From NCBI RefSeq assembly GCF_000418555.1, contig NZ_ATKM01000011.1, positions 372,001-436,000 of the forward strand: DNA of 64,000 nt, read 5' to 3'. This DNA is from Pseudomonas sp. P818 (GTDB lineage Bacteria; Pseudomonadota; Gammaproteobacteria; Pseudomonadales; Pseudomonadaceae). Below, piece after piece: positions 2,740 through 25,128 of this stretch (position 1 is the stretch's first letter; every line of letters begins with the position of its first letter). The notes beneath the pieces were generated by a model. The model was not told the origin of the DNA, made no database searches, and worked only from the letters and a program-made list of their open reading frames with translations. The position numbers were made by a program, and so were the translations under genes.

Positions 2740-2742
2740 CGC

Positions 2743-4514: not shown

Positions 4515-5804
<1,290 letters not shown>

Positions 5805-5824
5805 GTCTGATCGTTTTGCACGAT

Positions 5825-5854: not shown

Positions 5855-5971
5855 GGGCGGCAGGCTGGCGATGGCGCAGTCATTACGGCGCGCCCAGGAT
5901 CGGCGTCCATCAGTAGCGCGTATCGCACCTTGCGAGCCAGCCGCTCACATCCCGCTTACGAGGCACGACTC

Positions 5972-7360
5972 ATGCAATTCCTTCCGCTGTTTCACAAGCT
6001 GCAGGATCGCCCGGTACTGGTGATCGGTGGTGGCGAGGTCGCGTTGCGCAAGGCACGCCTGCTGAGCGATGCCGGGGCACGGCTGCGCGTCGTGGCGCCC
6101 GAGGTTCGTAGCGAACTACGGGAGCTGGCCGGGGCCGAAGGTTGTTTCCTGCGTGGCTATGTGAGCGGTGATCTGCAGGGCGTCGCCCTGGTCATCGCCG
6201 CCACCGATGACGAGCCGCTCAACGCACGTATTTCTGCCGAGGCTCAGGCGCAGGGCATTCCGGTCAACGTGGTGGATGCGCCGGCACTGTGCAGCGTGAT
6301 CTTCCCTGCCATCGTCGATCGCTCGCCGCTGATCGTCGCGGTCAGCAGCGGCGGCGATGCGCCGGTGCTGGCCAGGCTGATCCGCGCCAAGATCGAAACC
6401 TGGATTCCGGCCACCTATGGCCAGCTGGCCAACCTTGGCAAGCGCTTCCGTGATCGGGTCAAACAACTGTTTCCCGATGTGCAGCAACGCCGGGTGTTCT
6501 GGGAGGACGTCTTCCAGGGACAGATCGCCGAGAGCGTGTTTGCCGGCAAGCCGGAAGAGGGCGAGCGCCTGCTGGAGGAACGTCTGGCCGGTGCGGCGCC
6601 ACGTGCGCTGGGTGAGGTCTATCTGGTCGGCGCCGGCCCGGGCGATCCCGATCTGCTGACCTTTCGCGCCCTGCGCCTGATGCAGCAAGCCGATGTGGTG
6701 CTCTACGACCGCCTGGTGGCGCCGGCCATCATCGAGCTGTGCCGGCGCGATGCCGAGCGCATCTACGTCGGCAAGCGCCGCGCCGATCATGCCGTGCCGC
6801 AAGAGCAGATCAACCAGCTGCTGATCGACCTGGCGCGCCAGGGCAAGCGCGTGCTGCGCCTGAAGGGCGGCGATCCGTTCATCTTCGGCCGCGGTGGCGA
6901 AGAGATCGAGCAGCTGGCCGCCGAGGACATCCCGTTCCAGGTAGTGCCGGGTATTACCGCGGCCTCCGGTTGCGCGGCCTATGCCGGGATTCCGCTGACC
7001 CATCGCGACCATGCGCAGTCGGTGCGTTTCGTCACCGGTCATCTCAAGGATGGCAGCAGCAACCTGCCCTGGAAGGATCTGGTGGCGCCTGGGCAGACGC
7101 TGGTGTTCTACATGGGCCTGGTCGGGTTATCCGGCATCTGCGAGCAATTGATCGCGCACGGCCGCTCGGGCGCAACGCCCGCGGCGCTGGTGCAGCAGGG
7201 CACTACGCAGAATCAGCGGGTCTTCACCGGTACTCTGGAAACCCTGCCGCAGCTGGTGGCGCAGCACGAAGTGCATGCGCCCACCCTGGTGATAGTCGGA
7301 GAAGTGGTCACCCTGCGGGACAAGCTGGCCTGGTTCGAAGGTGCTCAGGGCAGCCTCTGA
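5972..7360 (+). CDS. cysG: Siroheme synthase CysG (trifunctional)
   Basis: Makes siroheme from uroporphyrinogen III: two SAM methylations to precorrin-2, NAD-dependent oxidation, then iron insertion. The N-terminal half (about 1-210) is the dehydrogenase/ferrochelatase module with [14 protein letters not shown]; the C-terminal half (about 215-460) is the SUMT methyltransferase with [22 protein letters not shown] and [17 protein letters not shown]. The frame stays open upstream into serS, but the family N-terminus [10 protein letters not shown] places the start at 5972 (462 aa). Siroheme feeds sulfite and nitrite reductases. Confidence 0.95.
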
Positions 7361-7365
7361 CGCAG

Positions 7366-7438
7366 GTAGGGTGGATCGCACTTCATCGATCCACCGCGGT
7401 CGGGCATCGGTGGATGAAAAAAGCGTCATCCACCCTAC
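7366..7438. repeat. Inverted repeat with ends GTAGGGTGGAT / ATCCACCCTAC
   Basis: An 11-base perfect inverted repeat (7366-7376 and 7428-7438) flanks inner copies of ATCCACC / GGTGGAT. It sits between the convergent cysG and hydroquinone reductase genes and could fold into a cruciform or act as a bidirectional terminator. GTAGGGTGGAT-type units occur as dispersed intergenic repeats in several Pseudomonas genomes (general knowledge); no second copy was noticed in this window. Confidence 0.6.
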
Positions 7439-7441
7439 GAC

Positions 7442-8449
7442 CTAGCTTTCAGCTTTTTGCCACACACCCTTGCCCGGCAGGCGCTGGCGGTCATGCGCGC
7501 GGGTGAAGTCCTGCTGCGGCCCCTTGGGGATCACCCCGGTCGGATTGATCGTGGCGTGGCTGGCGTAGTAGTGCGACTTGATATGGGTGAAGTCCACTGT
7601 CTCGGCGATCCCCGGCCACTGATACAGCTCGCGCAGCCAGTTGGACAGGTTCGGGTAGTCCTCGATGCGCCGCAGGTTGCACTTGAAGTGGCCGTGGTAG
7701 ACGGCATCGAAGCGGATCAGCGTGGTGAACAGGCGGATGTCGGCCTCGGTCAGGTATTCACCGGCCAGATATCGATTGTTGTCCAGGAGTGCTTCCAGCT
7801 CATCGAGCATGGCGAACAGCTCGTCGAAGGCTTCTTCGTAGGCTTCCTGGGTGGTGGCGAAGCCGGCCCTGTAGACGCCGTTGTTCACCGCCGGGTAGAT
7901 ACGCTCGTTGAGCTGGTCGATACGTTCGCGTAGCGGCTCCGGGTAGAAGTCCAGGTCATTACCGGTCAGGCCATCGAAGGCGCTGTTGAACATGCGGATG
8001 ATTTCCGCCGACTCGTTGCTGACGATGCCGCCGCTCTGTGTGTCCCAGAGTGTCGGCACGGTGACGCGGCCGCTGTAGTGGGGATCGTCGGCCGTGTAGC
8101 GCTGGTGCATGTAGCTGAGGTTGTCGAGACGGTCGCCGCTGGAGCCGAAGTTGCGGTCGAAGGTCCAGCCGTGCTCGCGCATCAGCCAACTGACCACGGA
8201 TACGTCGATCAAGGATTCCAGACCCTTGAGCTTGCGCAGGATCAGGGTACGGTGAGCCCAGGGGCAGGCCAGCGAGACATACAGGTGATAGCGTCCGGCT
8301 TCGGCCTTGAAACCGCCGTCGCCACTCGGGCCGGCGCTGCCGTCGGCGGTTACCCAGTTGCGGCGTTGCGCGCTTTCGCGTTGGAAGCGGCCACTGTCGC
8401 CGGTGTCGTACCACTGGTCGTGCCAGCGTCCATCGATCAGCAAACCCAT
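7442..8449 (-). CDS. yqjG: Glutathionyl-hydroquinone reductase (YqjG/ECM4-type, Xi-class GST)
   Basis: 335-aa Xi-class glutathione transferase that reduces glutathionyl-(hydro)quinones. The thioredoxin-like domain has the catalytic SLACPWAHR motif (Cys near residue 62), which separates this class from Ser/Tyr GSTs; the helical C-terminal domain carries LTEADIRLFTTLIRFDAVY and the late motif YYASHATINPTGVIPKGP. Length and order match the E. coli YqjG family. Monocistronic, convergent with cysG. Confidence 0.9.
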   Translation of the reverse strand: MGLLIDGRWHDQWYDTGDSGRFQRESAQRRNWVTADGSAGPSGDGGFKAEAGRYHLYVSLACPWAHRTLILRKLKGLESLIDVSVVSWLMREHGWTFDRNFGSSGDRLDNLSYMHQRYTADDPHYSGRVTVPTLWDTQSGGIVSNESAEIIRMFNSAFDGLTGNDLDFYPEPLRERIDQLNERIYPAVNNGVYRAGFATTQEAYEEAFDELFAMLDELEALLDNNRYLAGEYLTEADIRLFTTLIRFDAVYHGHFKCNLRRIEDYPNLSNWLRELYQWPGIAETVDFTHIKSHYYASHATINPTGVIPKGPQQDFTRAHDRQRLPGKGVWQKAES

Positions 8450-8523
8450 AACGCTTGCCTCCGTTCTTGAGTGAACCTGGAGTCTAGCGCCATGGGGTCG
8501 ATTGAAAGGTGGAAAAAGCTGGC

Positions 8524-9519
8524 TTAATCAATCGGCTGATTGGATCGAAGTCGGGCATCCCAGCGCTGCCGGGCCTGTTCGAAAGCCTGCTCGCGCGGCA
8601 TGCCCAGCCCTCGTAACGCGACGGCCATGGTGGCAACGACAGCCAGCTGGCCGTAGGCATCTTCGCGCTCGCCGCGCCAGAAGGCGCTCAGAACGGTCGG
8701 GTCGAGCTGTTCCGGTTTGACGTGACGCTGCGCCGAAAGCGCCGGCCATTCCTCGTCCCAGTCCTCGCCATCGCGGGTGCCGTACAGGTGGCAGGCCGCG
8801 TCCGGGTTCGCTTCGATCTCGCCGCCTTCGCCCTTGATGACGATGGCAGGGTCGCCGAGCAGGCGGCTGGCTTCGCGGTGCACGGCCTGGTAGCCAGGAT
8901 GGAAGATGCTCTGCAGCCCGCAGCTGGCGCTCAGCGGGTTGATGATGCGCGCCAGAGAGTGAATCGGCGAGCGCAGGCCCAGCGTGTTGCGCAGATCGAT
9001 CATGCGCTGCAGTGCCGGCATCCAGTCGCCCAGGTAGCTGTAGGCCAGGCCATGTTGATCGAGCGCCGTTGCCACGCTCTGCCAGTCGCGGCAGCAGGGG
9101 ATATCCAGCTCTGCCAGCAGCTGTTCGCTATACAGGCGCCCTGCGGTGTGGGCCCCACCGCCGTGCATGAAGATGCGCACGCCGCTGGCGGCCAGCGCCT
9201 TGGCCGCCAGCAGGTACCAGGGCAGGTGACGCTTCTTGCCGGCGTAGCTGGGCCAGTCCAGATCGACCCTGATGCCGGGTGCGGCCAGTCGTGAGCGGAT
9301 GGCTTCGGTAAAACCGGCGAGCTCCTCCGCGCTTTCTTCCTTGTGCCTCAACAGCATCAGGAAGGCGCCGAGCTGGGTGTCCTCGACCTTGTCGTCGAGC
9401 AGCATGCCCATGGCTTCGTGGGCTTCCTCGCGGGTCAGGCCGCGCGCGCCGCGTTTGCCCTTGCCGAGAATGCGCACGAACTGGGCGAAAGGATGTTCGG
9501 CGGGCGTGATCAGGTTCAT
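8524..9519 (-). CDS. ybiB: TrpD2/YbiB family protein (glycosyltransferase-fold nucleic-acid binder)
   Basis: 331 aa with the anthranilate phosphoribosyltransferase fold: N-terminal helices (LTREEAHEAMGMLLDDKVEDTQLGAFLMLLRHK) and a Rossmann-like domain. The exact PRPP motif of TrpD is replaced (FMHGGGAHTAGR). In E. coli YbiB, this branch binds nucleic acid without anthranilate activity (family knowledge), so it should not be called trpD. The ATG overlaps the tusE stop (ATGA), making it the last gene of the tus operon. Confidence 0.85.
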   Translation of the reverse strand: MNLITPAEHPFAQFVRILGKGKRGARGLTREEAHEAMGMLLDDKVEDTQLGAFLMLLRHKEESAEELAGFTEAIRSRLAAPGIRVDLDWPSYAGKKRHLPWYLLAAKALAASGVRIFMHGGGAHTAGRLYSEQLLAELDIPCCRDWQSVATALDQHGLAYSYLGDWMPALQRMIDLRNTLGLRSPIHSLARIINPLSASCGLQSIFHPGYQAVHREASRLLGDPAIVIKGEGGEIEANPDAACHLYGTRDGEDWDEEWPALSAQRHVKPEQLDPTVLSAFWRGEREDAYGQLAVVATMAVALRGLGMPREQAFEQARQRWDARLRSNQPID

Positions 9520-9851
9520 AGGCAGTTGGTCGGTTTCGGCAGGCCGGCGAGCTTGGCGGCGAGTTTGGCGGGCGTGCCCTTGAACAGGCGGTTGAGGTGC
9601 AGGCTGTTGCCCTTGTCCGGGCCGAGCTTGAGCGCCACGTACTTGATCAGGGGGCGATTGGCCGGCGACAACTGGAACTCATCGTAGAAGGCACGCAGCA
9701 GGTCGAGAATTTCCCAGTGCTCATCGCTCAGTTGCAGCTCTTCGGCGGCGGCCAGCGCTTCGGCAACCGGGTGCGACCAGTCTTGCAGGTCGACCAGGTA
9801 GCCATCCTTGTCCAGGGCGATTTCGCGTCCGGCGACATTTAGGATACTCAT
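9516..9851 (-). CDS. tusE: Sulfur-relay protein TusE/DsrC
   Basis: Accepts persulfide sulfur from TusBCD and hands it to MnmA for 2-thiouridine in the tRNA wobble position. 111 aa, starting MSILNVAGRE; the start is set by family length and by overlap with the tusB stop. The essential Cys is penultimate (C110 in PKPTNCL), as in TusE/DsrC. It lies between tusB and the trpD2 gene. Confidence 0.93.
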   Translation of the reverse strand: MSILNVAGREIALDKDGYLVDLQDWSHPVAEALAAAEELQLSDEHWEILDLLRAFYDEFQLSPANRPLIKYVALKLGPDKGNSLHLNRLFKGTPAKLAAKLAGLPKPTNCL

Positions 9852-10147
9852 AGCCAGCTGTTGACCTTGGCGTAGCGGGTGCAGAGCTCGACGAATGCCT
9901 GGTAATCCACGGCGCTCACGCGCTCGGGCGCCTGCAGGCCGCGTGCGGCGAGGTCCTCGTCCAGGGCATAGAGCGCGACGCTGGTGGGCATCAGTTGCAG
10001 CGCCTGCAGGTTGGCAGTGTCGGGTTGCAGGGCGTAGACCGCATCGCCACTGAGCAGCAGTGCGTCGTCGGCGCCCAGCAGGCGCAGGCAACTGGCCAGG
10101 CGGCTGTCGGCGAACGGCGAGTGGGAAAGGATATGCAGGGTGGCCAT
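9848..10147 (-). CDS. tusB: Sulfur-relay protein TusB/DsrH
   Basis: 99-aa subunit of the TusBCD hexamer that moves sulfur from TusA to TusE. The N-terminus MATLHILSHSP and the C-terminal KVNSWL are typical for the Pseudomonas DsrH branch. It is the least conserved of the three and has no catalytic cysteine motif of its own. The stop overlaps tusE and the start abuts tusC; the run of tusD-C-B-E is one operon. Confidence 0.88.
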   Translation of the reverse strand: MATLHILSHSPFADSRLASCLRLLGADDALLLSGDAVYALQPDTANLQALQLMPTSVALYALDEDLAARGLQAPERVSAVDYQAFVELCTRYAKVNSWL

Positions 10148-10506
10148 CAGAGGGTGATCACCTGGTCGTAACGGTCGAGGAGGGCGGTCAGCTCGCTGTC
10201 GTCGAGGCGCTGTACCGCGATATTCAATGCGGTGGCGCCGAGTCCGCGCTCGGCCAGGCTGCGCTGGCTGGCGTACAGAGCCTCCACGCCGAACATCGGC
10301 AGGGCCTGCAGATTGGCGCCGAGGTCCTTCTGCTGCAGATTGCCGGGCTGCTGGTGCGTGCTCAGCTGGAACACGCCATCGTCGAGAAACAGCATGCCGA
10401 TGGGCAAGTCGAAGGCGCCGCCGGCCAGGGCGATGTCCAGTGCCTCGCGCGCGCCGGGGCCGCTCCAGGGCGCCTGGCGGCTGATGATCAACAGCGACTT
10501 GCTCAT
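10147..10506 (-). CDS. tusC: Sulfur-relay protein TusC/DsrF
   Basis: 119-aa DsrE/F-fold subunit of TusBCD. MSKSLLIISRQAPWSG and ALDIALAGGAFDLPIGMLFLDDGV are the DsrF signature strand-helix unit. The start is directly downstream of the tusD stop, and the stop codon overlaps the tusB start. Confidence 0.9.
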   Translation of the reverse strand: MSKSLLIISRQAPWSGPGAREALDIALAGGAFDLPIGMLFLDDGVFQLSTHQQPGNLQQKDLGANLQALPMFGVEALYASQRSLAERGLGATALNIAVQRLDDSELTALLDRYDQVITL

Positions 10507-15556: not shown

Positions 15557-15643
15557 GCCCGAATGGCGAAATCGGTAGACGCAGGAGACTTAAAATCTCT
15601 CGCTCGCAAGGGCGTGCCGGTTCGAGTCCGGCTTCGGGCACCA
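15557..15643 (+). tRNA. tRNA-Leu (UAA), integration target
   Basis: 87 bases with encoded CCA. GCCCGAA pairs with TTCGGGC; anticodon TAA in GACTTAAAATC; class II variable arm. Its 3' end is the integrase-proximal attachment site of the element that follows and remains intact. Confidence 0.97.
15619..15643 (+). repeat. attL core: 3' end of tRNA-Leu
   Basis: The tRNA 3' portion (GTTCGAGTCCGGCTTCGGGC then ACCA) is repeated imperfectly at 25107-25128, where one base differs and one G is missing. This identifies the integration core. Confidence 0.65.
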
Positions 15644-15753: not shown

Positions 15754-15778
15754 TTTTAGGAATAAAAATGGGGATACG
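15754..15778 (+). repeat. Candidate integrase arm site, left copy
   Basis: TTTTAGGAATA, six variable bases, GGGATACG. The same two blocks with the same spacing occur in the same orientation at 25028-25052, each about 80-110 bases inside an att core, as expected for integrase or excisionase arm sites. Confidence 0.45.
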
Positions 15779-15805
15779 CCGGTTCGGTAAGGAAAACGTA
15801 TTCCT

Positions 15806-17128
15806 ATGGCACGCCCAGTCATCCCGCTGACAGACCCTAAATGCGAGGCAGCCAAGCCGCGCGAGAAGGAATACAAGCTCTTCGACGGCCAGGGCCTCTA
15901 CCTGGCGATAAAGCCCAGCGGCGCCAAGACATGGCGCTTCAAGTTCACTCGGCCTGATGGCCGGGCTGGGCTGGCCACCTTCGGTAACTATCCAGCTCTC
16001 ACGCTCAAGTCTGCGCGCGGTCGGCGTGCTGCTGCCTTAGAGCTGCTGGCCGAAGGTGTGGATCCCATCGAGCATGAGCAGCAGGCGAGGGCGACCGCCC
16101 AGGCTGAGCTCACCAACACCTTCAAGGCTGTAGCGTTGGACTGGCATGCGGCCGGCGCTCGCAAGTGGTCGCCGGATCATGCCGCCAAGGTATTGCGCCG
16201 GATGGAACAGCACCTGTTCCCGGCGCTCGGTAGCCGGGCGGTGACAAGTCTCAAGGTGCGTGACCTACTCACACCGCTCAAGGCGGCAGAGCAGCGCGAT
16301 ACCCTGGAGCTGGCCGGCCGGTTGCGCCAGTACATCACCGGGGTAATGCGCTACGCCGTCCAGCATGGGCTTATCGAAACCAACCCAGCGAGTGACTTGG
16401 TGGGCGCTACAGCGACCCGCAAGGCACAGCACCGTCCGGCGCTGGCATTGGAGCGGCTGCCCGAGCTGCTGCAGCGGATCGACAGCTACAACGGCCGCGC
16501 ACTGACCAAGCTGGCCGTGGCACTTACCCTGCAGGTGTTCATCCGCTCCAGTGAGCTGCGCTTTGCTCGGTGGCAGGAGATCGACATGCAAACCAGCCTC
16601 TGGACGATCCCGGGCGAGCGCGAGGCTATCGAGGGCGTCAAGCATTCAAGCCGAGGCGCCAAGATGCGCACGCCGCACCTGGTGCCGCTGAGCCGCCAGG
16701 CGCTTGGGTTGCTCGGGCAGGTTCATATGCTGTCCAGCCGGTATGAGTTGGTGTTCCCCGGCGACCACTACCACCACAAGCCTATGAGTGAGAACACCGT
16801 GAACGCTGCGCTACGCCGCATGGGGTACGACACCAAGGCCGAGGTATGCGGACATGGATTCCGTGCCATGGCTTGTTCTGCCCTGGTGGAGTCGGGCTTG
16901 TGGACGCGCGAGGCGGTAGAGCGGCAGATGAGCCACCAAGAGCGCAACACGGTGCGGGCCGCCTACATCCATAAGGCGGAACACCTCGAAGAGCGCAGGC
17001 TTATGGTGCAGTGGTGGGCTGACTACCTCGATGCCAACAGGCAGCAGCACGTCACCCCCTATGACTTTGCTCACCGAGGGGAGGGCGCCGCTAACGTGGT
17101 GCCAGTCAACTTCGGCAAGGCGGTTTGA
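15806..17128 (+). CDS. int: P4-type tyrosine integrase
   Basis: 440-aa site-specific recombinase that inserts and excises the element at tRNA-Leu. The N-terminal DUF4102 arm-binding domain (LTDPKCEAAKPREKEYKLFDGQGLYL...FTRPDGRAGLATFGNYPALTL) is followed by the SAM-like core-binding domain. The catalytic domain has Arg in IRSSELRFARW, His in HLVPLS, HGFRAMA, and Tyr in RAAYIHKAE. The catalytic set looks complete. The gene starts 163 bases after tRNA-Leu, the standard position for such integrases. Confidence 0.95.
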   Translation: MARPVIPLTDPKCEAAKPREKEYKLFDGQGLYLAIKPSGAKTWRFKFTRPDGRAGLATFGNYPALTLKSARGRRAAALELLAEGVDPIEHEQQARATAQAELTNTFKAVALDWHAAGARKWSPDHAAKVLRRMEQHLFPALGSRAVTSLKVRDLLTPLKAAEQRDTLELAGRLRQYITGVMRYAVQHGLIETNPASDLVGATATRKAQHRPALALERLPELLQRIDSYNGRALTKLAVALTLQVFIRSSELRFARWQEIDMQTSLWTIPGEREAIEGVKHSSRGAKMRTPHLVPLSRQALGLLGQVHMLSSRYELVFPGDHYHHKPMSENTVNAALRRMGYDTKAEVCGHGFRAMACSALVESGLWTREAVERQMSHQERNTVRAAYIHKAEHLEERRLMVQWWADYLDANRQQHVTPYDFAHRGEGAANVVPVNFGKAV

Positions 17129-17157
17129 GTATGCGAACCCGTACCCCTCGGAAAACT

Positions 17158-17307
17158 GGTGTTCCCGGTGTTCTTGGTGTTCCTCAATGGCTGGAAGCCA
17201 GTAACGGCGGGGCTTTCAGCGATGGAACACAATTGCGCAGAAGGCGGAACACGTGGTGTTCTGAACACCAATTGTGTTCCGTGATCGAGGGCGCCAGTTG
17301 GAACACC
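17158..17307 (+). repeat. Iteron array L: nine GGTGTTC boxes, inverted partner at 24649-24798
   Basis: GGTGTTC at 17158, 17167 and 17176 (9-base steps), inverse boxes at 17224 and 17246, GGTGTTC 17255, GAACACC 17263, GTGTTCC 17274 and GAACACC 17301. The reverse complement of 24649-24798 aligns over all 150 bases with no gap, every box at the same offset; by eye about 86% identity in the 132 bases outside the first two 9-mers. Two more single boxes (17346, 17403) lie outside the conserved block. The stretch can be read as an open frame from about 17131 to 17463, but differences between the copies change the amino acid freely, so I treat it as non-coding. Likely protein-binding sites for replication or regulation. 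Confidence 0.85.
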
Positions 17308-17462
17308 TCGGGGCGTTTCGATATAGCGCCAGCAGCCGGCCAGACGGAACACGACACAAGCCCAGCTCTGCCCTGGTGGCCGATGGGTGCAGGCTGGGCG
17401 ATGGAACACGGGCAAGCGCCCGCGCGTGTTGCCGCGCGGGAGTTTGGGGAGTGGGGGGATTA

Positions 17463-18155
17463 ATGGGCGGCTCAGTTGAACTAGAGCTTGATTACATTAT
17501 GGGGATGGTTGAGAGCATTCGGGATCACTGGGACTTTCTGAGTTCGCCTTACCACCCGCTTGGCTTTTCGCCAGCTCCGTTTTACCACCCTTGGCTTGAG
17601 CGGTACTTCGGAGACGGCTGGCTGGCGGATGAGTCTGGACGACAGCGATGCGAGGAACACGCCGGCCGGGGGCTGGAAATTGCCCTGTTTATCCCGATGC
17701 TGGAAGGCATGATGTTGGAGGCGAGGGATGCGGTAGATAACGCCGACTTTATGAACGTATCGTTTCGTAAGTCTGCGGCATTATCGGCCTGGATCCTGGC
17801 CAAAAAAGCGATAGCGGAGCCGCTGAATGATGCTGAGCTTAACGAGCTGGGATGGCGCCTTACGGAGCTGGTGGCCAGGGGAGACGGCACACTTCGGCGG
17901 GCGTTGCGCGAAGCCGCACGAAAGGCCGGGCAGAAGGGCGGTACACACTCTGCCGCCACGCGGCGGGCTGATTTTGCGGCCGCTGCTGCTGAGACCTGCC
18001 GGTTGGCCCGCGATGTACAGAAAGAAAGAGCTAGAAAGCCCGCTGACCTGGTAAGCGTGCTGGCGACACGTCTCAGCCTTTCAAAGCCGACCGTCCGAGC
18101 GCACTTGCGGCATGAGGGGCTTTATCCAGATGAAAAGAAAAGAAAGCGAGGCTAG
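17463..18155 (+). CDS. Unknown element protein with C-terminal HTH-like end
   Basis: 230 aa from ATG 17463, which forms TAATG with the stop of the open frame through the iteron array. I do not recognise the family. The middle is helical and slightly hydrophobic (LEIALFIPMLEGMMLEARDAV). The C-terminal third is alanine- and basic-rich, with LSLSKPTVRAHLRHEG resembling a recognition helix, and ends KKRKRG. The position between integrase and the excisionase-like gene, right next to iteron array L, suggests a DNA-binding regulatory role, but this is inference. Confidence 0.65.
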   Translation: MGGSVELELDYIMGMVESIRDHWDFLSSPYHPLGFSPAPFYHPWLERYFGDGWLADESGRQRCEEHAGRGLEIALFIPMLEGMMLEARDAVDNADFMNVSFRKSAALSAWILAKKAIAEPLNDAELNELGWRLTELVARGDGTLRRALREAARKAGQKGGTHSAATRRADFAAAAAETCRLARDVQKERARKPADLVSVLATRLSLSKPTVRAHLRHEGLYPDEKKRKRG

Positions 18156-18215
18156 GTTCGTTTTCTTTTGAGTGCGTAGCTTGCGACCTGTGGAAAACAA
18201 CACAGGTAGACAGCT

Positions 18216-18482
18216 ATGAACAACAACGCTCTATCACGACAGCACCCGCGCGCTGAGGCCGGCACAGGCATAGACCCGGCCGACCTCCTGACGCCTGAAC
18301 AGGCGGCGCAGTTGCTCGGCCTCTCGCTCAAGACCCTGGCCGCCTGGCGCAGCACTGGCCGCCATGCACTGCCGTTCATTCGCTGCGGTGCCCGTATTCG
18401 TTACCGTCGCTCTGATCTTGCGGCCTGGCTGCACGCCCGCCAGAGCACCACCGCCGCGCCTGCGGTGAAGGGGGCAGCGTAA
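18216..18482 (+). CDS. Helix-turn-helix DNA-binding protein (excisionase/HTH_17 type)
   Basis: 88 aa. Residues about 25-75 form a MerR/excisionase-type winged helix: LTPEQAAQLLGLSLKTLAAWRSTG...FIRCGARIRYRRSDLAAWL. Proteins of this kind serve as recombination directionality factors or as small regulators in integrative elements. The stop codon forms TAATG with the next start, so it is coupled to the AlpA-like gene. The pairing of two HTH proteins downstream of the integrase makes one of them a candidate Xis. Confidence 0.8.
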   Translation: MNNNALSRQHPRAEAGTGIDPADLLTPEQAAQLLGLSLKTLAAWRSTGRHALPFIRCGARIRYRRSDLAAWLHARQSTTAAPAVKGAA

Positions 18483-18811
18483 TGGTCAAGCCTTCTGTCA
18501 AAGCGTCCAGCGCTGTCCCAGCTGGCCCGCTCTCCGCCGAAAAGGTGCGGGAGCTGCGGCCTGGCGCCAGCAACACTGTTGCGACGGTACTCGACCCCGC
18601 TGTGACCCTGATCCGTATGCCCGACTTGCTGGCACTGACCGGCCTGCAGCGTGCAACGGTTTACAAGCGCCTCAAGGATGACCCGACCTTTCCCCGGCCA
18701 GTGCCGCTCAGCGCCAGTACCGCCCGTGGCGCCCCCGTGGCGTTCGTGCTGGCTGAGGTACAGGCCTGGGTGCGTGCGCGGATCGCCTCGCGCGGGGAGG
18801 CTGCAGCATGA
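18482..18811 (+). CDS. AlpA-like transcriptional regulator
   Basis: 109 aa. After a low-complexity N-terminus, LIRMPDLLALTGLQRATVYKRLKDDPTFPRPVPL is the AlpA/phage-regulator wing-HTH pattern, ending VQAWVRARIA. AlpA family members activate excision genes in P4-like elements. It overlaps the previous gene by one base and the following gene by four (ATGA), so the three are co-translated. Confidence 0.8.
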   Translation: MVKPSVKASSAVPAGPLSAEKVRELRPGASNTVATVLDPAVTLIRMPDLLALTGLQRATVYKRLKDDPTFPRPVPLSASTARGAPVAFVLAEVQAWVRARIASRGEAAA

Positions 18812-19494
18812 AGCGCAATCGCCACCCGTTCGAGGAACCTTTCTTCGATCCCTACCGGATTGGGTTTGCCTTGTATCGCCCGGATCAACCCAACTTTTGC
18901 CAGCGCACCATTGCCGGCGTGAGCTGGGATGGCCGCGCCAAGGAAGCCTACTTCTTCAACCCTGCCGGCCTGGTGCTCCCCCTGGAGCCTCACCCATATA
19001 ACCTGCCGCCTCTGCTCGGCCGTCATGCCGTACGGCGCAAGTTTGCCCACGTGGAAGGGGGCGGCCTGTTCGCCATGAAACCAGCTCAGTTAAAGGCAAT
19101 GAGCGCCGCCAGGCTGGGGGATTGGGTGACTTATTGGCTTATCGATGATGACGCCCATTACGCCAATGAGCCCGACACCTGGGCCGTGCATGCCGATGCC
19201 CGAGCGCGTGAAGCGCGCGAGAATGTTGAGTGGGCCTTCAAGCACTATCCATCCCGGCACTGGCCCGAGCATCTGCAGAGTACATGTGGCCTGGATGAAG
19301 CCGAGCGAACCGCGCTACAGCAACAGCGCGCCGCACACATGGAGCGCCAGCAGGCTGAAGCCGAACGGGTATCACGCAGCAACAGCGCCGAGGACTACGC
19401 CCGACAGTGCGCCTACGACAAGCGGATTAACGCATGGTTACGCGGCGAAGCGGGCGACCCGCCTTTGCTGGCCTTGATGAAAGACGCCGCCTGA
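18808..19494 (+). CDS. Unknown element protein, 228 aa
   Basis: Not recognised. Soluble, aromatic-rich N-terminal half (FEEPFFDPYRIGFALYRPDQPNF, GRAKEAYFFNPAGLVLPLEPHPYNLPPLLGR) and a long, charged, Gln/Ala-rich helical C-terminal half (about 150-215) that could be coiled. No signal peptide or membrane segment. Last gene of the tightly overlapping regulator trio and followed by the long leader with the C4-like RNA. A phage/plasmid accessory function is all that can be said. Confidence 0.65.
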   Translation: MKRNRHPFEEPFFDPYRIGFALYRPDQPNFCQRTIAGVSWDGRAKEAYFFNPAGLVLPLEPHPYNLPPLLGRHAVRRKFAHVEGGGLFAMKPAQLKAMSAARLGDWVTYWLIDDDAHYANEPDTWAVHADARAREARENVEWAFKHYPSRHWPEHLQSTCGLDEAERTALQQQRAAHMERQQAEAERVSRSNSAEDYARQCAYDKRINAWLRGEAGDPPLLALMKDAA

Positions 19495-19579
19495 CCAACC
19501 CCTAAAACGAAAACGCCCCCGGTGGCAGCCGAGGGCGTTGGAGGTGAAGCGCTGTGCCCAATCAATCTATGCCCTGCAT

Positions 19580-19601
19580 GGGCATCGTGCAAGCGATGCC
19601 C
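19580..19601. repeat. Perfect 8-bp hairpin upstream of the C4-like RNA
   Basis: GGGCATCG, six-base loop, CGATGCCC. No T-run follows, so it is not an obvious terminator; it may be a binding site or an RNA stem in the leader. Confidence 0.5.
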
Positions 19602-19614
19602 GCGCTGTTGAACC

Positions 19615-19643
19615 TTGCGCAGCCGCTACGGCAGCGCTACTCT
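19615..19643 (+). promoter_or_regulatory. Candidate promoter of the C4-like RNA
   Basis: TTGCGC (19615-19620), 17 bases, TACTCT (19638-19643). Both boxes are weak matches; support comes from the position just before the conserved RNA segments. Confidence 0.35.
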
Positions 19644-19649
19644 GCACCC

Positions 19650-19736
19650 GCCGCTGTAAATCCAGCGACCGGGTGTGGAAGCCCGATCAACTCTAGGCGC
19701 ACAAGCGCCATCGTATCGAAAGCAGGCGCTTTTTTT
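19650..19736 (+). ncRNA. C4-like antisense RNA
   Basis: The segment carries GGTGTGGAAG (19672-19681) and AACTCTAGG (19689-19697), both complementary to one downstream stretch (CTTCCACACC 19810-19819 and CCTAGAGTT 19796-19804). It then has alternative GC hairpins (GGCGC-ACAA-GCGCC, 19696-19709; GCGCC 19705-19709 with GGCGC 19725-19729) and ends in seven T (19730-19736). This matches the layout of the phage P1/P7/P4 C4 antisense RNA: two antisense blocks, a terminator, then target blocks before the regulated gene. The 5' end is estimated from the promoter guess. Confidence 0.6.
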
Positions 19737-19795
19737 GTGCCCGTTGTTTCGTTTTATGGTGGCTGTGCGCAGGGCGCTTTCGAGCGCGCCGGATT

Positions 19796-19876
19796 CCTAG
19801 AGTTCCGGTCTTCCACACCTGCGTACAGCCGCCACCCATCATGTGGAAGTGATGATGGCGGTTCCTCAACTCTAGG
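19796..19876 (+). promoter_or_regulatory. C4 target site and decoy covering the ribosome binding site
   Basis: Target blocks CCTAGAGTT (19796-19804) and CTTCCACACC (19810-19819) can pair with the upstream RNA or, within the same transcript, with TGTGGAAG (19842-19849) and AACTCTAGG (19868-19876). The last copy overlaps the AGGAG that serves the ATG at 19887. An open frame from about GTG 19737 through this region joins the next gene in phase; its VPVVSFYGG...ERAGF segment recalls the ASH-type leader peptides often found after C4 RNAs. Confidence 0.55.
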
Positions 19877-19886
19877 AGCCGTAACC

Positions 19887-20198
19887 ATGAAGCACCCGCA
19901 CGCCCTCAATCCGTCCGCACTTCAGCAACGCGCCGCCGCCCTGAAGGCCCGAGCCTTTGCCGCGCTTCGCGCTGATTCATCCCTGTCCGTTCGCCTCGCT
20001 CGCTACAACGTCGCTATGGCCAAGGCTCGCGAGCTGGAAGCCCAAGCCGAGCAGTGCAAGGCCACCAGCGACGCCAGCCAGGCGCTGGCCTGGCTGCAAG
20101 GTGGCCACCGTGCCCACATTCGTGCGGCCAACCTGCGCGAGCACCTTGAGCACGTCCGCTCCCTGACTCTGAAAGCTCAGGAGGTGCGCCATGCGTAA
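19887..20198 (+). CDS. Small helical element protein, 103 aa
   Basis: Alanine-rich, almost fully helical and basic: MKHPHALNPSALQQRAAALKARAFAALR... No known family recognised. ATG 19887 has AGGAG eleven bases upstream, inside the C4-decoy sequence, so its translation is the likely target of the RNA switch; the same frame is open back to 19554. First gene of a run in which each start overlaps the previous stop (20191, 20426, 20695, 20928), ending in the primase-helicase. Confidence 0.7.
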   Translation: MKHPHALNPSALQQRAAALKARAFAALRADSSLSVRLARYNVAMAKARELEAQAEQCKATSDASQALAWLQGGHRAHIRAANLREHLEHVRSLTLKAQEVRHA

Positions 20199-20433
20199 GC
20201 AGATGAACCCGCATGCCACTGAGCTGGCCAATGAACTCGAGATGAAGCTCGACACCGTAAAAGTGTTGGCTGAAATCACGTTGGACAATACGGCCCTTGC
20301 CGACTGTGCCGAAGGGGCATACCTGGATCGCAGCCACGCTGCAGCGCTGATGCAGGCACAGGTCTACCTGTCGCAATCGATCTTCAACGACTTCTGCAAG
20401 CTGATGGAGCTGGTGGAGGTGCCTCATGTGTGA
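20191..20433 (+). CDS. Small unknown element protein, 80 aa
   Basis: Overlaps the previous gene by eight bases and the next by eight. Predicted helical, acidic (ELANELEMKLDTVKVLAEITLDNTALADCAEG, then a second helix ending LMELVEVPHV). No motif recognised. Conservation of tight overlaps on both sides supports it as a real coding sequence. Confidence 0.6.
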   Translation: MRKQMNPHATELANELEMKLDTVKVLAEITLDNTALADCAEGAYLDRSHAAALMQAQVYLSQSIFNDFCKLMELVEVPHV

Positions 20434-20698
20434 TCAACAGAACCTCACCATCGGCCTGGACTTCTGCAAAATTCGAGGTCAGCACCTGTTCCAAGTCAAC
20501 ACCGGAGTACCGGCCAAGCTTGCGTTGGAGCATGCCAGCGATTTGCTGGAGGTTATCAACGGACTGTCTCAGACGGTCGCCATGGAACTGGCGCATGGTG
20601 GCGAAAGCTTCGCGGTCTATCACTTGAGCGAGATGGTCAAGGCGCTGGTTGATGCCGCTGCCGCTGGCCTACCTGACTCTGCAGGGGGTGACCAATGA
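20426..20698 (+). CDS. DUF3077 family protein
   Basis: 90 aa with the DUF3077 pattern common in Pseudomonas prophages and islands: LFQVNTGVPAKLALEHASDLLEVINGL followed by an amphipathic C-terminal helix. Function unknown for the family. Overlaps the neighbouring genes by eight and four bases. Confidence 0.7.
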   Translation: MCDQQNLTIGLDFCKIRGQHLFQVNTGVPAKLALEHASDLLEVINGLSQTVAMELAHGGESFAVYHLSEMVKALVDAAAAGLPDSAGGDQ

Positions 20699-20931
20699 GC
20701 GCGCTCCCATCAAAGATCACTTTCTTTCGTCAAGGCGTAGCTGCTAGTGCTGGTGTCCTGAGCTCAGCCGGTATCGGGCTGAAAGGCATCGGCCTAATGC
20801 TGGCCGAACGCGAGTTGAGCAGCTCAGAAGCGAACGCCCTTCACCACGCAGTCATTGCCTTGGGTTTCATGGTGGAAGCTCAAGGTGGCACGTTGTTCGA
20901 TAGCGCTGATGAGTTGGAGGGCAACGAATGA
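20695..20931 (+). CDS. Small unknown element protein, 78 aa
   Basis: Starts by ATGA overlap with the DUF3077 gene and ends by ATGA overlap with the primase-helicase. A glycine/alanine-rich N-terminus (FFRQGVAASAGVLSSAGIGLKGIGLML) is followed by an acidic C-terminus. No family recognised. Confidence 0.55.
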   Translation: MSALPSKITFFRQGVAASAGVLSSAGIGLKGIGLMLAERELSSSEANALHHAVIALGFMVEAQGGTLFDSADELEGNE

Positions 20932-23828
20932 CCGATACCCGAGAACGCAAGAAGTACCCCACCTTTGCCGAGGTGAAGCGCGCCGCCCTGCAGGCCATCG
21001 ACCGGGTGCTGTCGCACTGGTTGCCCGGTGGCAAGCGGGTGGACGGCGGCAAGGAATACACCGCACCCAACCCAACGCGGGCCGACAAGCGCGCGGGCTC
21101 GCTCAAGGTGAACTTGGCCAAGGGCACCTGGAGCGACTTCGCCACTGGCGACAAGGGCGGCGACCTGATTGACCTGGTGCGCTACCTGGACGGCGGCAGC
21201 GAGGTGGACGCTTGCAACAAGCTGGCGGACTTCTTGGGCGTTACGCCAGGCACTGTCAGCGCCAGCGCGCCGGCCAGCAACAAGCCCAAGGCGCCCGAGT
21301 GGGTGCCGGTGTTGCCGATCCCTGATGAGGCCATGCGCAAGGTGCTGCAGACGCACCGCCAGCACGGCAAGCCGTCGAAGGTGTGGATCTACCGTGCCGC
21401 CGATGGCCAACCGTTGATGGTGCTGTATCGCTTCGACCTGGGCCCGGATGAAAGCGGCACGCCGCGCAAGGTGTTCGCCCCGCTGACCTGGTGCAAGCAG
21501 TCGGGCAATGGCTCGCTGTCCTGGCGTTGGCAGGGGTTGCCCGAGCTGCGCCCGCTGCTGCGTCTTGATGAGCTGACCACCCGAGCGGCTGCCCCGGTGG
21601 TGCTGTGTGAAGGCGAGAAGGCGGCAGACGCTGCTGCCGAGCTGCTGACTGGCTACGTCGCTACCTGCTGGCCCAACGGCACCAACTCTTGGCAGAAAGC
21701 CGACTTCGCCCCATTGGCTGGCCGCGATGTGCTGCTGTGGCCGGACAACGACGCACCCGGCCTCAAGTGCATGGATGCCCTGGCAGAGCACCTGCGCCAG
21801 CTTGGCGTGGCCTCGGTGCGCTCGATAGCGCTTGCGGTGTTCAGCCAGCGCCCTGGCCTCGATGGCGAGCGGCCCACCTTCGCCCCTGGTGGCGACTGGG
21901 CCGAGGGGGACGACGCTGCCGATGCAGTGGCCAAGGGCTGGACGGCGGCACATCTTGCCGAGTTGGAGCGTACCGGGGAGCTGTTCGCCTTGGCGCCGAC
22001 TGCAGCGCCAGCGAGCAAAGGGAATGGGGCGAGCGCCAGCGGCAAGCCGGCGCCTACCGAGAAGCCTGCACCGATGCCGGCCGGCTTTCGCGTCACCGCC
22101 GATGGCGTGTTCTATGCCGGCGACGATGGCGAGGCGCGGCCGGTGTGTTCGCGCCTGGAGATCCTGGCGCGCACCCGCGACGAGAAAGGCCAAAGCTGGG
22201 GCTTGCTGGTGGAGTTCGACGACCCAGACGGCGACAAGAAGCGGTTGAACATTCCGGCCCGCTCCATGGCGGGGGACTTCGGCAAGGAGGTAGTCGGCCC
22301 GCTGGTTGATATGGGCTTGCGCCTGGCCCCGGTGCGTACCGCTCGCAACTCCCGCAACGACCTGCAGAGTTACCTGCAGGGCTACGACAGTGCCGAGCGT
22401 GCCCGCCTGGTCACGCGGCTGGGCTGGCATGGCGATGCCTACCTGTTGCCGGATCGCCAGATAGGCCAGAGCATCGAGCACCTGCACTTCTACGAAGCCG
22501 GCGCCCAGCTCCCGCCAATTAGCCAGGCCGGCACCCTAGAACAATGGCAGCAGCAGATTGGCGCGTTGTGCGTGGGCAACAATCGGCTGGCGTTCGTGGT
22601 GTGCGTTGCCTTCGCCGGCCCGCTGCTGCACCTGCTGGGCGCCGAGTCGGGTGGCTTCCACCTCTACGGCGACAGCTCAGGCGGCAAGACCACGCACCTG
22701 CAGGTGGCCGCCTCGGTATGGGGTGGCCCGCGCCTGGTACGTTCGTGGCGCTCGACTGATAACGCCCTGGAGAGCATCGCCGCCGCGCACTCTGACGGGC
22801 TGCTGGTGCTCGATGAAATTGGCATGTGTGACCCGAGGATCATCGGCGAAACGGTGTACATGCTGGGCAATGGCACCGGCAAGGCGCGCGCCAATGATCG
22901 CGGCCAGGCCGGGCGCCAGGTGCAGGAGTGGCGCTTGCTGTTCCTCTCTACCGGGGAGAAGACGCTAGCGCAGCACATGGCCGAGGCACACAAGGAGCTG
23001 AAAGCCGGGATGGAGGTGCGCTTGCTGGCTGTGCCGGCTGATGCCAGCAAGGGGCTTGGGCTGTTCGAGGTGCTGCATGGCTTCGACGATGCTGCCGCGC
23101 TGTCGGATGCGCTCAAGGCACGGGCGGGCAGGTTCTACGGTTCGCCGGCACTGGCCTTCCTGTCGGCCCTCTGCGAGCCGGGCAAGCTGCGCGGTTACGC
23201 GGCCATGGTACGTAGTACGGTGGAGCGCTTCACCGCCGATGCGTTGCCCGCCAGCGCCAGCGGCCAGGCTCAGCGGGCAGCCGCGCGGTTCGGGCTTGCT
23301 GCTGCAGCCGGGGAGCTGGCTACGGCGTTGGGCGTCACGGGCTGGCCAGATGGTACGGCCACGCATGCCGCCAGGGTGTGCCTGGGCGCCTGGCTGGCAG
23401 AGCGTGGCGGGGCTGGCAATCTGGAAGGTGACGCCATTGTGCAGCGCCTGCGCCTGACCATTGAGCGCTATGGCGAGGGGCGCTTTACCCGCTGGGACAA
23501 CGTGGCGGCCAAGGTGGACGAACACGCACCACGAACGGTTGACCGCCTCGGCTTCCGGCGCACCATCGAGCACGGTTGCGGGGATGTGCTTTACACCACG
23601 ACCACCTACTACCTGTTGCCCACCGCCTGGCGTGATGAGGTGTTCAAGGGTATGAACCTGCGCAACGTCAATCGGGTGCTGGTGGAGCGGGAGATATTGC
23701 AGCCCGGCAAGGATGGCAAGGCCGCCCAATCCATCGCGCTGCCCGGTATGCCCAAGGGGCGGGCCTATGTGGTGGACGGTGCCAAGCTGTTTGCTGATGA
23801 AGAGGAAGCCCTCGCTGCTGCTGCCTGA
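20928..23828 (+). CDS. TOPRIM-DUF927 primase/helicase-like replication protein, 966 aa
   Basis: Likely initiates or drives replication of the excised element. The N-terminus (about 40-90) has NPTRADKRAGSLKVNLAKGTWSDFATGDKGGDLI, the primase-type nucleic-acid domain without visible zinc cysteines. A TOPRIM domain follows with VVLCEGEKAAD (about 223) and WPDNDAPG (about 270). After a linker, the DUF927 ATPase domain has Walker A GDSSGGKTT (about 581) and Walker B LLVLDEIG (about 624). A C-terminal DNA-binding tail is plausible. The architecture parallels the P4 alpha protein (primase-helicase-ori binding) without clear sequence relation. Last gene of the coupled operon. Confidence 0.85.
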   Translation: MTDTRERKKYPTFAEVKRAALQAIDRVLSHWLPGGKRVDGGKEYTAPNPTRADKRAGSLKVNLAKGTWSDFATGDKGGDLIDLVRYLDGGSEVDACNKLADFLGVTPGTVSASAPASNKPKAPEWVPVLPIPDEAMRKVLQTHRQHGKPSKVWIYRAADGQPLMVLYRFDLGPDESGTPRKVFAPLTWCKQSGNGSLSWRWQGLPELRPLLRLDELTTRAAAPVVLCEGEKAADAAAELLTGYVATCWPNGTNSWQKADFAPLAGRDVLLWPDNDAPGLKCMDALAEHLRQLGVASVRSIALAVFSQRPGLDGERPTFAPGGDWAEGDDAADAVAKGWTAAHLAELERTGELFALAPTAAPASKGNGASASGKPAPTEKPAPMPAGFRVTADGVFYAGDDGEARPVCSRLEILARTRDEKGQSWGLLVEFDDPDGDKKRLNIPARSMAGDFGKEVVGPLVDMGLRLAPVRTARNSRNDLQSYLQGYDSAERARLVTRLGWHGDAYLLPDRQIGQSIEHLHFYEAGAQLPPISQAGTLEQWQQQIGALCVGNNRLAFVVCVAFAGPLLHLLGAESGGFHLYGDSSGGKTTHLQVAASVWGGPRLVRSWRSTDNALESIAAAHSDGLLVLDEIGMCDPRIIGETVYMLGNGTGKARANDRGQAGRQVQEWRLLFLSTGEKTLAQHMAEAHKELKAGMEVRLLAVPADASKGLGLFEVLHGFDDAAALSDALKARAGRFYGSPALAFLSALCEPGKLRGYAAMVRSTVERFTADALPASASGQAQRAAARFGLAAAAGELATALGVTGWPDGTATHAARVCLGAWLAERGGAGNLEGDAIVQRLRLTIERYGEGRFTRWDNVAAKVDEHAPRTVDRLGFRRTIEHGCGDVLYTTTTYYLLPTAWRDEVFKGMNLRNVNRVLVEREILQPGKDGKAAQSIALPGMPKGRAYVVDGAKLFADEEEALAAAA

Positions 23829-23878
23829 TATTGCCGGCCCAAGGTTCGTCCTGGCCGGCGCTTTCTCTTGCTCTATCC

Positions 23879-23997
23879 GGTATCGTAAAACGACCGTTTA
23901 TTGATACCAGCAAAACACCCTGCCTAATTGGTATCAACAAATACGGGTTTACTATTTATTGATACCAATAGATAATGAACCCACCTTAAACGATACC
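23879..23997. repeat. Five GATACC/GGTATC boxes upstream of the serine recombinase
   Basis: GGTATCG 23879, TTGATACC 23901, GGTATCAA 23930, TTGATACC 23959 and CGATACC 23991, at roughly 29-base steps with mixed orientation in an AT-rich stretch. The arrangement resembles resolvase subsites or an autoregulatory operator. The recombinase starts at 24011. Confidence 0.65.
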
Positions 23998-24010
23998 AAC
24001 TGGGCACACC

Positions 24011-24568
24011 ATGAATCGCATCTTCGCCTACGGCCGCGTCTCGACTCTGGAGCAATCTACCGACAACCAGTTGCTGGCTCTGCAGCAGAAGGGCTTCGAT
24101 GTGCAGCCGCACCGCTGGTTTGCTGAGCAGGTGTCTGGCGGTGTTCCCGCGCTGCAGCGTCCAGAGTTCTCCAAGATGGCTGATCGTATGGAAGCCGGCG
24201 ATGTGCTGGTGGTGCTCAAGCTGGATCGACTCGGCCGCGACGTGCAAGACGTGCTGTCCACCATCGAAGTCCTGGCCGCCCGCTCTATCCATGTGCGCAG
24301 CCTCGATCTGGACGGCGTAGACCTGACCAGCGCAGCCGGTAAGCTACAACTCACCGTCCTGGCTGCCGTGGCTGCCTTCGAGCGCGACCGCATCAAGGAG
24401 CGCACCAAGGAGGGCTTGGCCCGTACCACCAAGAAGGCCGGACGCCCTGAGGCAGTCGAGACCACCAAGGCAGTGCAAGCCTGCAAAGCCAAGGGCATGA
24501 GCCAGAGCCAGGCTGCTGCCGAGCTGGGGCTTAGCCTGCCGACCGTCAAGCGTCACTGGAACAAGTGA
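24011..24568 (+). CDS. Serine recombinase (resolvase/invertase family)
   Basis: 185 aa. Resolvase catalytic domain with nucleophile Ser in YGRVSTLEQ (residue about 10), KLDRLGRD, and the GKLQLTVLAAVAAFERDRIKERTKEGL dimer/E-helix region. The C-terminal HTH (MSQSQAAAELGLSLPTVKRHWNK) is complete. It could resolve multimers of the excised replicating element or invert DNA between boxes like those at 23879-23997, or just the inverted arrays. The presence of both a tyrosine and a serine recombinase in so small an element is noteworthy. Confidence 0.9.
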   Translation: MNRIFAYGRVSTLEQSTDNQLLALQQKGFDVQPHRWFAEQVSGGVPALQRPEFSKMADRMEAGDVLVVLKLDRLGRDVQDVLSTIEVLAARSIHVRSLDLDGVDLTSAAGKLQLTVLAAVAAFERDRIKERTKEGLARTTKKAGRPEAVETTKAVQACKAKGMSQSQAAAELGLSLPTVKRHWNK

Positions 24569-24648
24569 CGCCATTCGCCCGAGCCGCTTGGCTTGGGCGC
24601 TATGCCCCGCCCTTCCTCCTGCTGGCCCAGCACCTAACGCAATGGTGT

Positions 24649-24798
24649 GGTGTTCCACCTGGCGCCCCTGATCACGGAACACCATTGGTGTTCAGAACAC
24701 CAAGTGTTCCACCTTCCTCGCAATTGTGTTCCATGGCCACAAGCCCCGCCGTTGCTGGGCTGCAGCCGTTGCGGAACACCAAGAACACCGGGAACACC
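24649..24798 (-). repeat. Iteron array R: inverted copy of array L
   Basis: Boxes at 24649, 24676, 24687, 24695, 24704, 24726, 24774, 24783 and 24792 mirror those of 17158-17307 position by position (paired coordinates sum to 41956). It lies between the serine recombinase and the right end. The reverse strand is also open here, but the predicted peptide differs from that of array L at most changed codons. Confidence 0.85.
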
Positions 24799-25106
24799 AG
24801 TGATTCGAGGGTTACGGATTGGCGTACCCCAGCGCCCCGCTAGGGGTGGCGCCGCCAGCGGTGAAAGACTGAGCGCGATGTAGCGTCGGCAGCGCTCGCC
24901 CATGGGGTGGGGCGGGTCAAAAGTCTGGCTGACCTAGCCGCCGAACGACGGGGGGAGCCAAGTTTTCCGTGCGCCAAGATTTCAAATAGGGGGGGGGTTA
25001 AGGTTCAGGGCAGGGTGGTGATTTGGGTTTTAGGAATACGCTTAGGGATACGGTGATCATGGAGGAACGGGTCAGGCCAGATAAATAGGGGGTTTGACAG
25101 GTCATG
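24799..25106. other. Gene-free right end of the element
   Basis: No convincing coding sequence. It contains a run of nine G near 24990 and the right copy of the TTTTAGGAATA/GGGATACG pair (25028-25052). I see no recognisable cos site or terminase remnant. Confidence 0.5.
25028..25052 (+). repeat. Candidate integrase arm site, right copy
   Basis: TTTTAGGAATA, six bases, GGGATACG: identical blocks and spacing to 15754-15778, same orientation. Confidence 0.45.
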
Positions 25107-25128
25107 TTCTAGTCCGGCTTCGGCACCA
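25107..25128 (+). repeat. attR: degenerate copy of the tRNA-Leu 3' end
   Basis: TTCTAGTCCGGCTTCGGCACCA-like sequence; versus attL it has C-to-T in the T loop and one G lost before CACCA. The tRNA could not be rebuilt exactly from this end, which suggests an old insertion or imprecise exchange. Confidence 0.6.

Follow-up and report, generated by a model that had tools for sequence, protein, structure and literature searches.

The stretch of Pseudomonas sp. P818 DNA analysed here (the window; 64,000 nucleotides of contig NZ_ATKM01000011.1, positions 372,001 to 436,000) contains an integrative element of about 9.5 kb, the cargo of which, including the gene of a DUF927 primase-helicase, is enclosed by two arrays of short GTGTTC boxes lying in inverted orientation to each other. 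The inverted array pair is confirmed in the window and recurs in most of the related loci, and the class of box carried by an element tracks the C-terminal part of its DUF927 protein. By analogy with ori and crr (the cis-required region) of phage P4, we consider it likely that the arrays serve the element's own replicon as origin modules to which the initiator binds.

The array pair of the window

The left array (17129-17307, + strand) and the right array (24649-24827, - strand) form a gapless inverted repeat of 179 nt that is 86% complementary (25 of the 179 positions are mismatched). A preliminary description of this DNA had called the arrays gapless inverted twins with 18 mismatches in their 150-bp core, and the same number was obtained on recomputation. 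The GGTGTTC/GAACACC boxes of the left array start at 17158 (30 bp past the integrase stop), 17167, 17176 and 17255 on the plus strand and at 17263 and 17301 on the minus strand; their mirror partners on the right are found at 24792, 24783, 24774 (the outermost three), 24695, 24687 and 24649. The right box at 24677 faces a degenerate left copy (GTGTTCC, 17274), so that the earlier statement that every box has a partner is wrong by one, whereas the statement that nearly all boxes have been kept holds: mismatches in the core affect 1 of 67 box positions (every 7-mer box present in either arm) versus 17 of 83 other positions (one-sided Fisher P = 1.8e-4).

The left array begins with three direct boxes 9 bp apart, which are followed by a spacer of about 40 bp and then by inverted and mixed boxes. 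Nine GTGTTC boxes were counted in 150 bp, the maximum across 300 dinucleotide shuffles of the element being 3. When the left arm was compared with the window's own genome (blastn-type search, E <= 0.001), these two copies and none further were recovered, and the array DNA had zero matches in either the phage or the plasmid collection. Extra single GGAACAC boxes were noticed at 17346, 17403 and 17654, just inside the left array, with no counterparts inside the right array.

Recurrence of the paired arrays in related elements

Searching the species-genome collection with six peptide patterns taken from the DUF927 protein of the window retrieved 63 loci, 64 together with the window; because they were found by the patterns of this very protein, the loci are close relatives and not independent. 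The preliminary description had proposed a search for paired arrays in related elements, and with a hidden Markov model built from the arms a left (+) and a right (-) array were indeed detected in 46 of the 64 loci, the window included (L068 is a 47th paired locus, its right array lying about 35 kb away). One or both arrays were absent from the DNA first examined in 18 loci, 11 of which are cut by contig ends (L022, L041, L050, L063, L066, L071, L073, L077, L079, L082 and L083) and four of which have an incomplete DUF927 match (L075, L076, L078 and L080). L023 has no right array within 10 kb and another array on a different contig of its genome, and in L040, whose DUF927 gene is whole, neither an integrase nor a left array was found within the 10 kb examined. 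The weak extra plus-strand matches in L049 and L058 represent the right array read on the other strand.

The left array follows the stop codon of the integrase in all 54 loci having both, at a distance of exactly 30 bp in 38 of them, 14-54 bp in 53 and 153 bp in L084 (the integrases of these loci are 30-94% identical to that of the window). The right arrays were found 0.9-9.8 kb past the DUF927 gene within the 10-kb flank examined, and one in the genus set lies 25.6 kb behind it; the cargo thus sits inside the arrays. In the common layout, an array opens with three direct boxes at 9-bp intervals; after a spacer of about 40 bp comes an inverted box, and additional boxes extend up to about position 121-128. 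In both arrays the direct boxes point outward and the remaining boxes inward. The left arm was on average closer to the right arm of the same element (mean 0.635) than to other right arms of the same class (0.549); the own right arm was the best match of the left arm in only 10 of 46 loci, so that the idea of closest partners holds just in part. A direct repeat shared by the DNA preceding the integrase and the 3 kb past the right array was detected in 17 of 46 loci, at a distance of about 0.3-1.7 kb outward from the array, but several of these repeats are only 12-17 nt long and may be due to chance, and some are the integrase's own repeats and not an attachment (att) core.

Some loci carry more than one right-type array. 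In L107 (2211-2645) the right array is duplicated in tandem at a distance of about 320 bp, which is reminiscent of the two 120-bp repeats in P4 crr; two right arrays separated by about 165 bp are present in L028. A second right-type array is found 0.6-1.4 kb from the first in L030 (partial), L035, L044 and L051, where it may belong to a neighbouring element, or to an older one, that occupies the same site. The right array of L084 (15280-15565) contains a long run of the 9-mer GTGTTCCAT, an expanded version of the three direct boxes.

Whole genomes were searched with a sequence-only model of the arrays (R1), which matched in 102 of 398 genomes of the same genus. Among the 150 genus matches listed, neighbouring pairs 5-60 kb apart were inward in 49 cases (6.4-35 kb apart), outward in none and parallel in one, two more parallel pairs being tandem copies about 320 bp apart. 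A DUF927 protein match was present in 58 of the 60 genomes queried out of the 102, and 48 of the 49 inward pairs among the matches listed enclose such a match (four of these carry a stop codon). The exception, L096 (genome G031, 2053-10490), has the integrase, both inverted arrays and cargo, and no DUF927 gene; this could be a stripped-down element relying on a helicase borrowed in trans. By eye, open reading frames (ORFs) between its arrays resemble an HNH-type protein and an AAA ATPase. Across the order, R1 matched in 4 of 244 genomes, two of which are the window's own genome and a congener. The third (G412) belongs to a different family; its two arrays, with arms 94% alike, point inward at a distance of 15 kb and enclose a DUF927 gene, the product of which is 46% identical to that of the window. 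The fourth (G542) gave one weak array match.

Box classes and the C-terminal part of the DUF927 protein

According to their majority box, 60 loci were classified as GTGTTC (19), GTGTTA (15) or GTGTAA (26), the other four of the 64 having no array and hence no class. The class (GTGTTC versus the rest) agrees between the left and right arrays in 45 of the 46 loci having both; stray boxes of the opposite kind occur in L025, L026, L046 and L070, and L028 is mixed in both arrays. The class tests were performed on the 54 sequences that remained after removal of L028 and of DUF927 reading frames shorter than 850 amino acids (aa); quick trees were built, in which 51 of the 54 loci had integrase and AlpA rows and the tree of p103, a 103-aa protein, had 38 rows. 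DUF927 is present in every locus by selection, and homologues of AlpA and p103 (57 of 64 each), the integrase (54) and the DUF3077 protein (51) are widespread. For the serine recombinase, homologues were found in just 5 of 64 loci, so that it is not the partner of the arrays in general.

The box class is followed more closely by the ~135 C-terminal residues of the DUF927 protein than by its remainder, AlpA or the integrase. Along the DUF927 alignment, the excess of same-class identity was 0.067-0.116 in the last five windows (columns 826-962) and -0.023 to 0.017 in all others, compared with maxima of 0.114 in p103, 0.054 in AlpA, 0.035 in the integrase and 0.023 in the DUF3077 protein. For pairs with an N-part identity of 0.80-0.93, the C-part identity averaged 0.60 (highest 0.71) between opposite classes (n=85) versus 0.84 (lowest 0.57) within the same class (n=374). 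Between the window and L022/L023, which are of opposite class, the identity of the DUF927 proteins drops from 93% in columns 1-820 to 73% in the C part; between L025 and L027, likewise of opposite class, it drops from 93% to 57%. The fewest class changes were required on the tree of the C part (2), followed by the N part (4), AlpA (5), p103 (6) and the integrase (7). With six changes on its 38-row tree, p103 was rejected as the class-tracking protein.

The C-terminal 152 residues of the DUF927 protein were modelled, and the domain is probably a winged helix. The top rows of the second structural aligner were two entries of the pCW3 oriT-binding relaxosome protein (Z 7.2 and 7.0). The same aligner matched the model with residues 452-556 of the Rep protein of SaPIbov1, a Staphylococcus aureus pathogenicity island (SaPI) (8tch; Z 6.2 over 90 residues, a middling score), the next row having Z 4.0; the model weakly resembles the C-terminal domain of this Rep. 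The DNA-binding domain of P4 alpha was not among the rows listed, which is uninformative either way. The helicase part of the DUF927 protein also matches SaPIbov1 Rep (8tch) by phmmer (5e-15), and the C-terminal domains of SaPI Rep and Cch2 are reported to recognise origin iterons (PMC7581432).

Comparison with phage P4

Phage P4 needs both ori and crr for its replication, and we know of no settled reason why two iteron regions should be required. The P4 record (X51522) annotates both, as the origin and as a cis-required region. The crr comprises two 120-bp repeats near attP with the box order + + (9 bp), 43 bp, - - +, and ori read backwards has + + (10 bp), 43 bp, - and then + + +; by these box orders ori and crr are inverted to each other, and a 37-bp inverted repeat between them was also found de novo. 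As in the window, the two regions flank the intervening genes (ORF88-cI-epsilon-alpha) with their direct boxes outward, two direct boxes 9-10 bp apart are followed after 43 bp by an inverted box, and the core word TGTTC is shared in the same strand relation. P4 crr is located about 200 bp from attP, and both arrays of the window likewise lie towards the element ends. The pattern TGTTC-N4/5-TGTTC-N38-48-GAAYA occurs in P4 only in crr repeat 1, crr repeat 2 and (inverted) ori, and in the window only in its two arrays, with 0 occurrences in 300 shuffles of each sequence, but it was composed after the P4 annotation had been seen.

The likeness extends to gene content, as a C4 antisense RNA with a1/b1 targets, an AlpA/Vis-type regulator and a tyrosine integrase at a tRNA are all present in the window. 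The putative DNA-binding protein encoded between P4 ori and crr is one that we take to be AlpA-like. The C4 RNA and c4-a1b1 were both detected in four of six further loci scanned (L024, L032, L038 and L042) and were not found in L096 and L097, both of which lack a DUF927 gene. The array of L097 adjoins a 2519-aa ORF with a DnaG-primase-like start. P4 differs in its replication protein, the unrelated alpha (Pox_D5/D5_N/DUF5906), where the window has the DUF927 protein, in its boxes (TGTTCACC), in the tandem of two 120-bp units that forms crr, and in the different second half of ori.

SaPI-type origins and more distant DUF927 replicons

In phage-inducible chromosomal islands (PICIs), the origin is located 3' of the initiator gene and is described as an AT-rich region with a set of iterons on either side (PMC6092414). 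The elements studied here resemble SaPIs and PICIs in the related helicase and in having iteron sets on both sides of a spacer, which is AT-rich in the GTGTTA and GTGTAA classes and hardly so in the class of the window, but they differ in having two arrays instead of one origin 3' of the initiator, inverted to each other, the left one being upstream beside the integrase.

Eight more distant DUF927 records (L108-L115) were examined by a crude hexamer scan. A Salmonella record (OX345456; 7 kb, linear and possibly incomplete) has a GGTAAC array of 9 copies on both strands that starts 26 bp behind the DUF927 gene and includes three direct boxes 9 bp apart. In the complete, circular plasmid III of Legionella fallonii, a GGGACA array of 9 copies begins 7 bp past the gene, with the first three boxes spaced by 9 and 10 bp, and the E. 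coli element AP026530 shows a weaker GGTGGA cluster just 3' of the gene. The Salmonella and L. fallonii arrays thus share three direct boxes plus inverted partners with the window, but each is single and uses another box word, and no second cluster of the same word was found in these two records or in that of E. coli. A single array behind the gene is thus the state encountered elsewhere, and it is the inverted pair that distinguishes the Pseudomonas lineage (and G412). Within the parts of the literature that were accessible, we found no account of such an inverted array pair in Pseudomonas, and nothing on the combination of DUF927, satellite and Pseudomonas. In L113, six copies of CACACC are present some 90 bp past the DUF927 gene. 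The E. coli element L112 (9797-18390) is annotated with an integrase, AlpA and a polarity suppression protein, has a DUF927-type gene (annotated as alkaline-shock protein), and looks like a P4-like satellite with a DUF927 helicase.

Extent and gene map of the element

The element extends from the 3' end of a tRNA-Leu (TAA) gene, its attachment gene (15557..15643, +; ARAGORN), where attL is located, to a partial, attR-like near-copy of that end past the right array (25106..25123, +; 18 nt, 94%, E 0.006), 308-325 bp beyond the array. By eye, a separate repeat motif was recognised next to each att site (about 15754-15780 and 25030-25056); it probably represents integrase arm sites, and second repeats like it were also seen in some other loci.

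The tyrosine integrase (15806..17128, +; Pfam Arm-DNA-bind_3 / Phage_integrase) lies outside the arrays. Behind the left array follow, all on the plus strand, a 230-aa protein without a family match (17463..18155; homologues in 4 of 64 loci including the window), an HTH_17 protein (18216..18482; 25 of 64), the AlpA regulator (18482..18811; Pfam PF05930) and a 228-aa protein without a family match (18808..19494; 16 of 64). The C4 region consists of the target sites c4-a1b1 (19637..19689, +; Rfam RF03163, 47.8 bits, gathering threshold 46.7) and the C4 antisense RNA (19752..19839, +; Rfam RF01695, 83.5 bits). Next come four small ORFs, among them p103 (19887..20198, +), an 80-aa ORF (20191..20433, +; homologues in 2 of 64 loci) and the DUF3077 protein (20426..20698, +), and then the 966-aa DUF927 primase-helicase (20928..23828, +; Pfam PF06048, 1e-81), whose residues ~826-962 are the proposed box reader, and a serine recombinase of the resolvase/invertase type (24011..24568, +; Pfam PF00239), which adjoins the right array. 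This map agrees with the preliminary description, in which the arrays enclosed the regulators, the C4 RNA, the DUF927 gene and the serine recombinase but not the integrase. No psu, sid or delta was found in the Pfam/PHROG scans of ten element proteins, which did not include a directed search for them.

Interpretation of the paired arrays

The earlier suggestion of an inverted ori/crr-like pair is well supported by the recurrence of the arrays, by the class tracking of the C-terminal domain, and by the P4 layout and orientation. That the arrays would work as P4 ori and crr do appears likely to us; that at least one of them binds the initiator and functions as an origin is, as judged from the sequence, a quite probable part of this reading, and that both are needed together is a tentative one, to which we give somewhat less than an even chance. 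The integrase would excise the element as a circle, on which replication is expected to take place. The C-terminal domain of the DUF927 primase-helicase would read the GTGTTC boxes in both arrays, and the initiator-bound arrays would be brought together, presumably by looping, so that their complexes interact; the helicase would then be loaded, and would open the circle and start its replication. Circularisation would also place int and attP between the arrays, with about 2 kb from one array to the other on that side. A more speculative extension, which we regard as unlikely, is that two inward origin modules load two converging helicases, so that the cargo is copied, possibly while integrated, without entry into the chromosome; the box words and their C-terminal reader would have changed together, giving separate replication identities, and some elements (L096) might borrow a helicase.

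Several observations weigh against the origin-module reading. A single array just 3' of the gene in three of the eight distant DUF927 records implies that two arrays are not generally needed, and no clear array of this layout was seen by the crude hexamer scan in L109, L111 and L113-L115. Among the genus matches listed, 52 of 150 belong to no inward pair (contigs are broken), and the complete genome G297 has an array (L097) with no DUF927 match and no partner among these matches. Of the 22 class-diagnostic DUF927 columns, 12 are in 856-945 and the other 10 in 260-756, so that the signal is concentrated in the C part and not confined there, and the last columns of p103 also show raised same-class identity (0.08-0.11). 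The class switches on the DUF927 trees are few (2-4), which makes the class association good but not final evidence. The C-terminal model is of modest confidence (pLDDT 71), all its structural Z scores are below 8, and Foldseek gave no match for it at E <= 0.001. BLASTP detected no similarity between P4 alpha and the DUF927 protein, and R1 had no match above chance in P4, for which reason sequence homology to ori and crr is not claimed. The spacer of the GTGTTC class, to which the window belongs, is hardly AT-rich, with a mean of 46% AT compared with 43% for the loci overall and 58-69% for the other classes, and the covariation of the inverted repeat present in it is no higher than in shuffles (score 0.176 vs 0.174), so that no hairpin is claimed.

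The right array alone might be the working origin as in PICIs and SaPIs, with the left one as a second initiator site serving copy number, incompatibility or promoters past the integrase. The single clusters behind the DUF927 gene in Salmonella, L. fallonii and (weaker) E. coli, the position of PICI origins 3' of the initiator gene (PMC6092414) and the tandem right arrays of L107 and L028 would fit such a division of roles, but the left and right arrays are alike in layout and box number, the left one is nearly fixed in its place after the integrase, and the P4 record annotates both of the corresponding regions; we therefore rate this alternative as rather improbable. Much less probable is a role of the boxes as operators for a regulator or an excisionase, with AlpA and the HTH_17 protein as candidates. 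The HTH_17 protein occurs in only 25 of 64 loci, and AlpA, although nearly universal and less identical between than within classes in most bins (its same-class excess reached 0.054 in one window), requires more class changes on its tree than the DUF927 C part; moreover, in the distant replicons the array stands directly behind DUF927.

Arm-type binding sites of the tyrosine integrase would explain why both arrays lie towards the element ends and why the left one always follows the integrase gene. The integrase tree, however, requires the most class changes of the five trees, the integrases of the window and of L022/L023 are 94% identical while their classes differ, and the separate motif seen by eye adjoins both att sites, so that such a role is very improbable. 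Least probable, and hardly credible in our view, is the invertible or transposable core that the preliminary description had offered as an alternative, with the arrays as ends of a segment inverted by the serine recombinase or of a transposon. It would account for the inverted orientation and for the recombinase next to the right array, but it is disfavoured by the rarity of that recombinase, by the integrase side, which is constant in 54 of 54 loci, and by the opposite-strand genus pairs, 49 of 49 of which are inward among the matches listed. The arrays are also 14% diverged, and no transposase family was found in the ten element proteins scanned, except for a weak PHROG match of the HTH_17 protein (E 0.0055).

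The occurrence of the inverted layout with an unrelated helicase in P4, and of the arrays in about a quarter of the genomes of the genus that were searched, suggests that the paired inverted arrangement is useful in itself, whether through common descent of the module or through convergence. The analysis names a likely box-reading domain and predicts its specificity classes, and it provides a sequence signature by which such elements and their ends may be found, including stripped ones without a replication gene.

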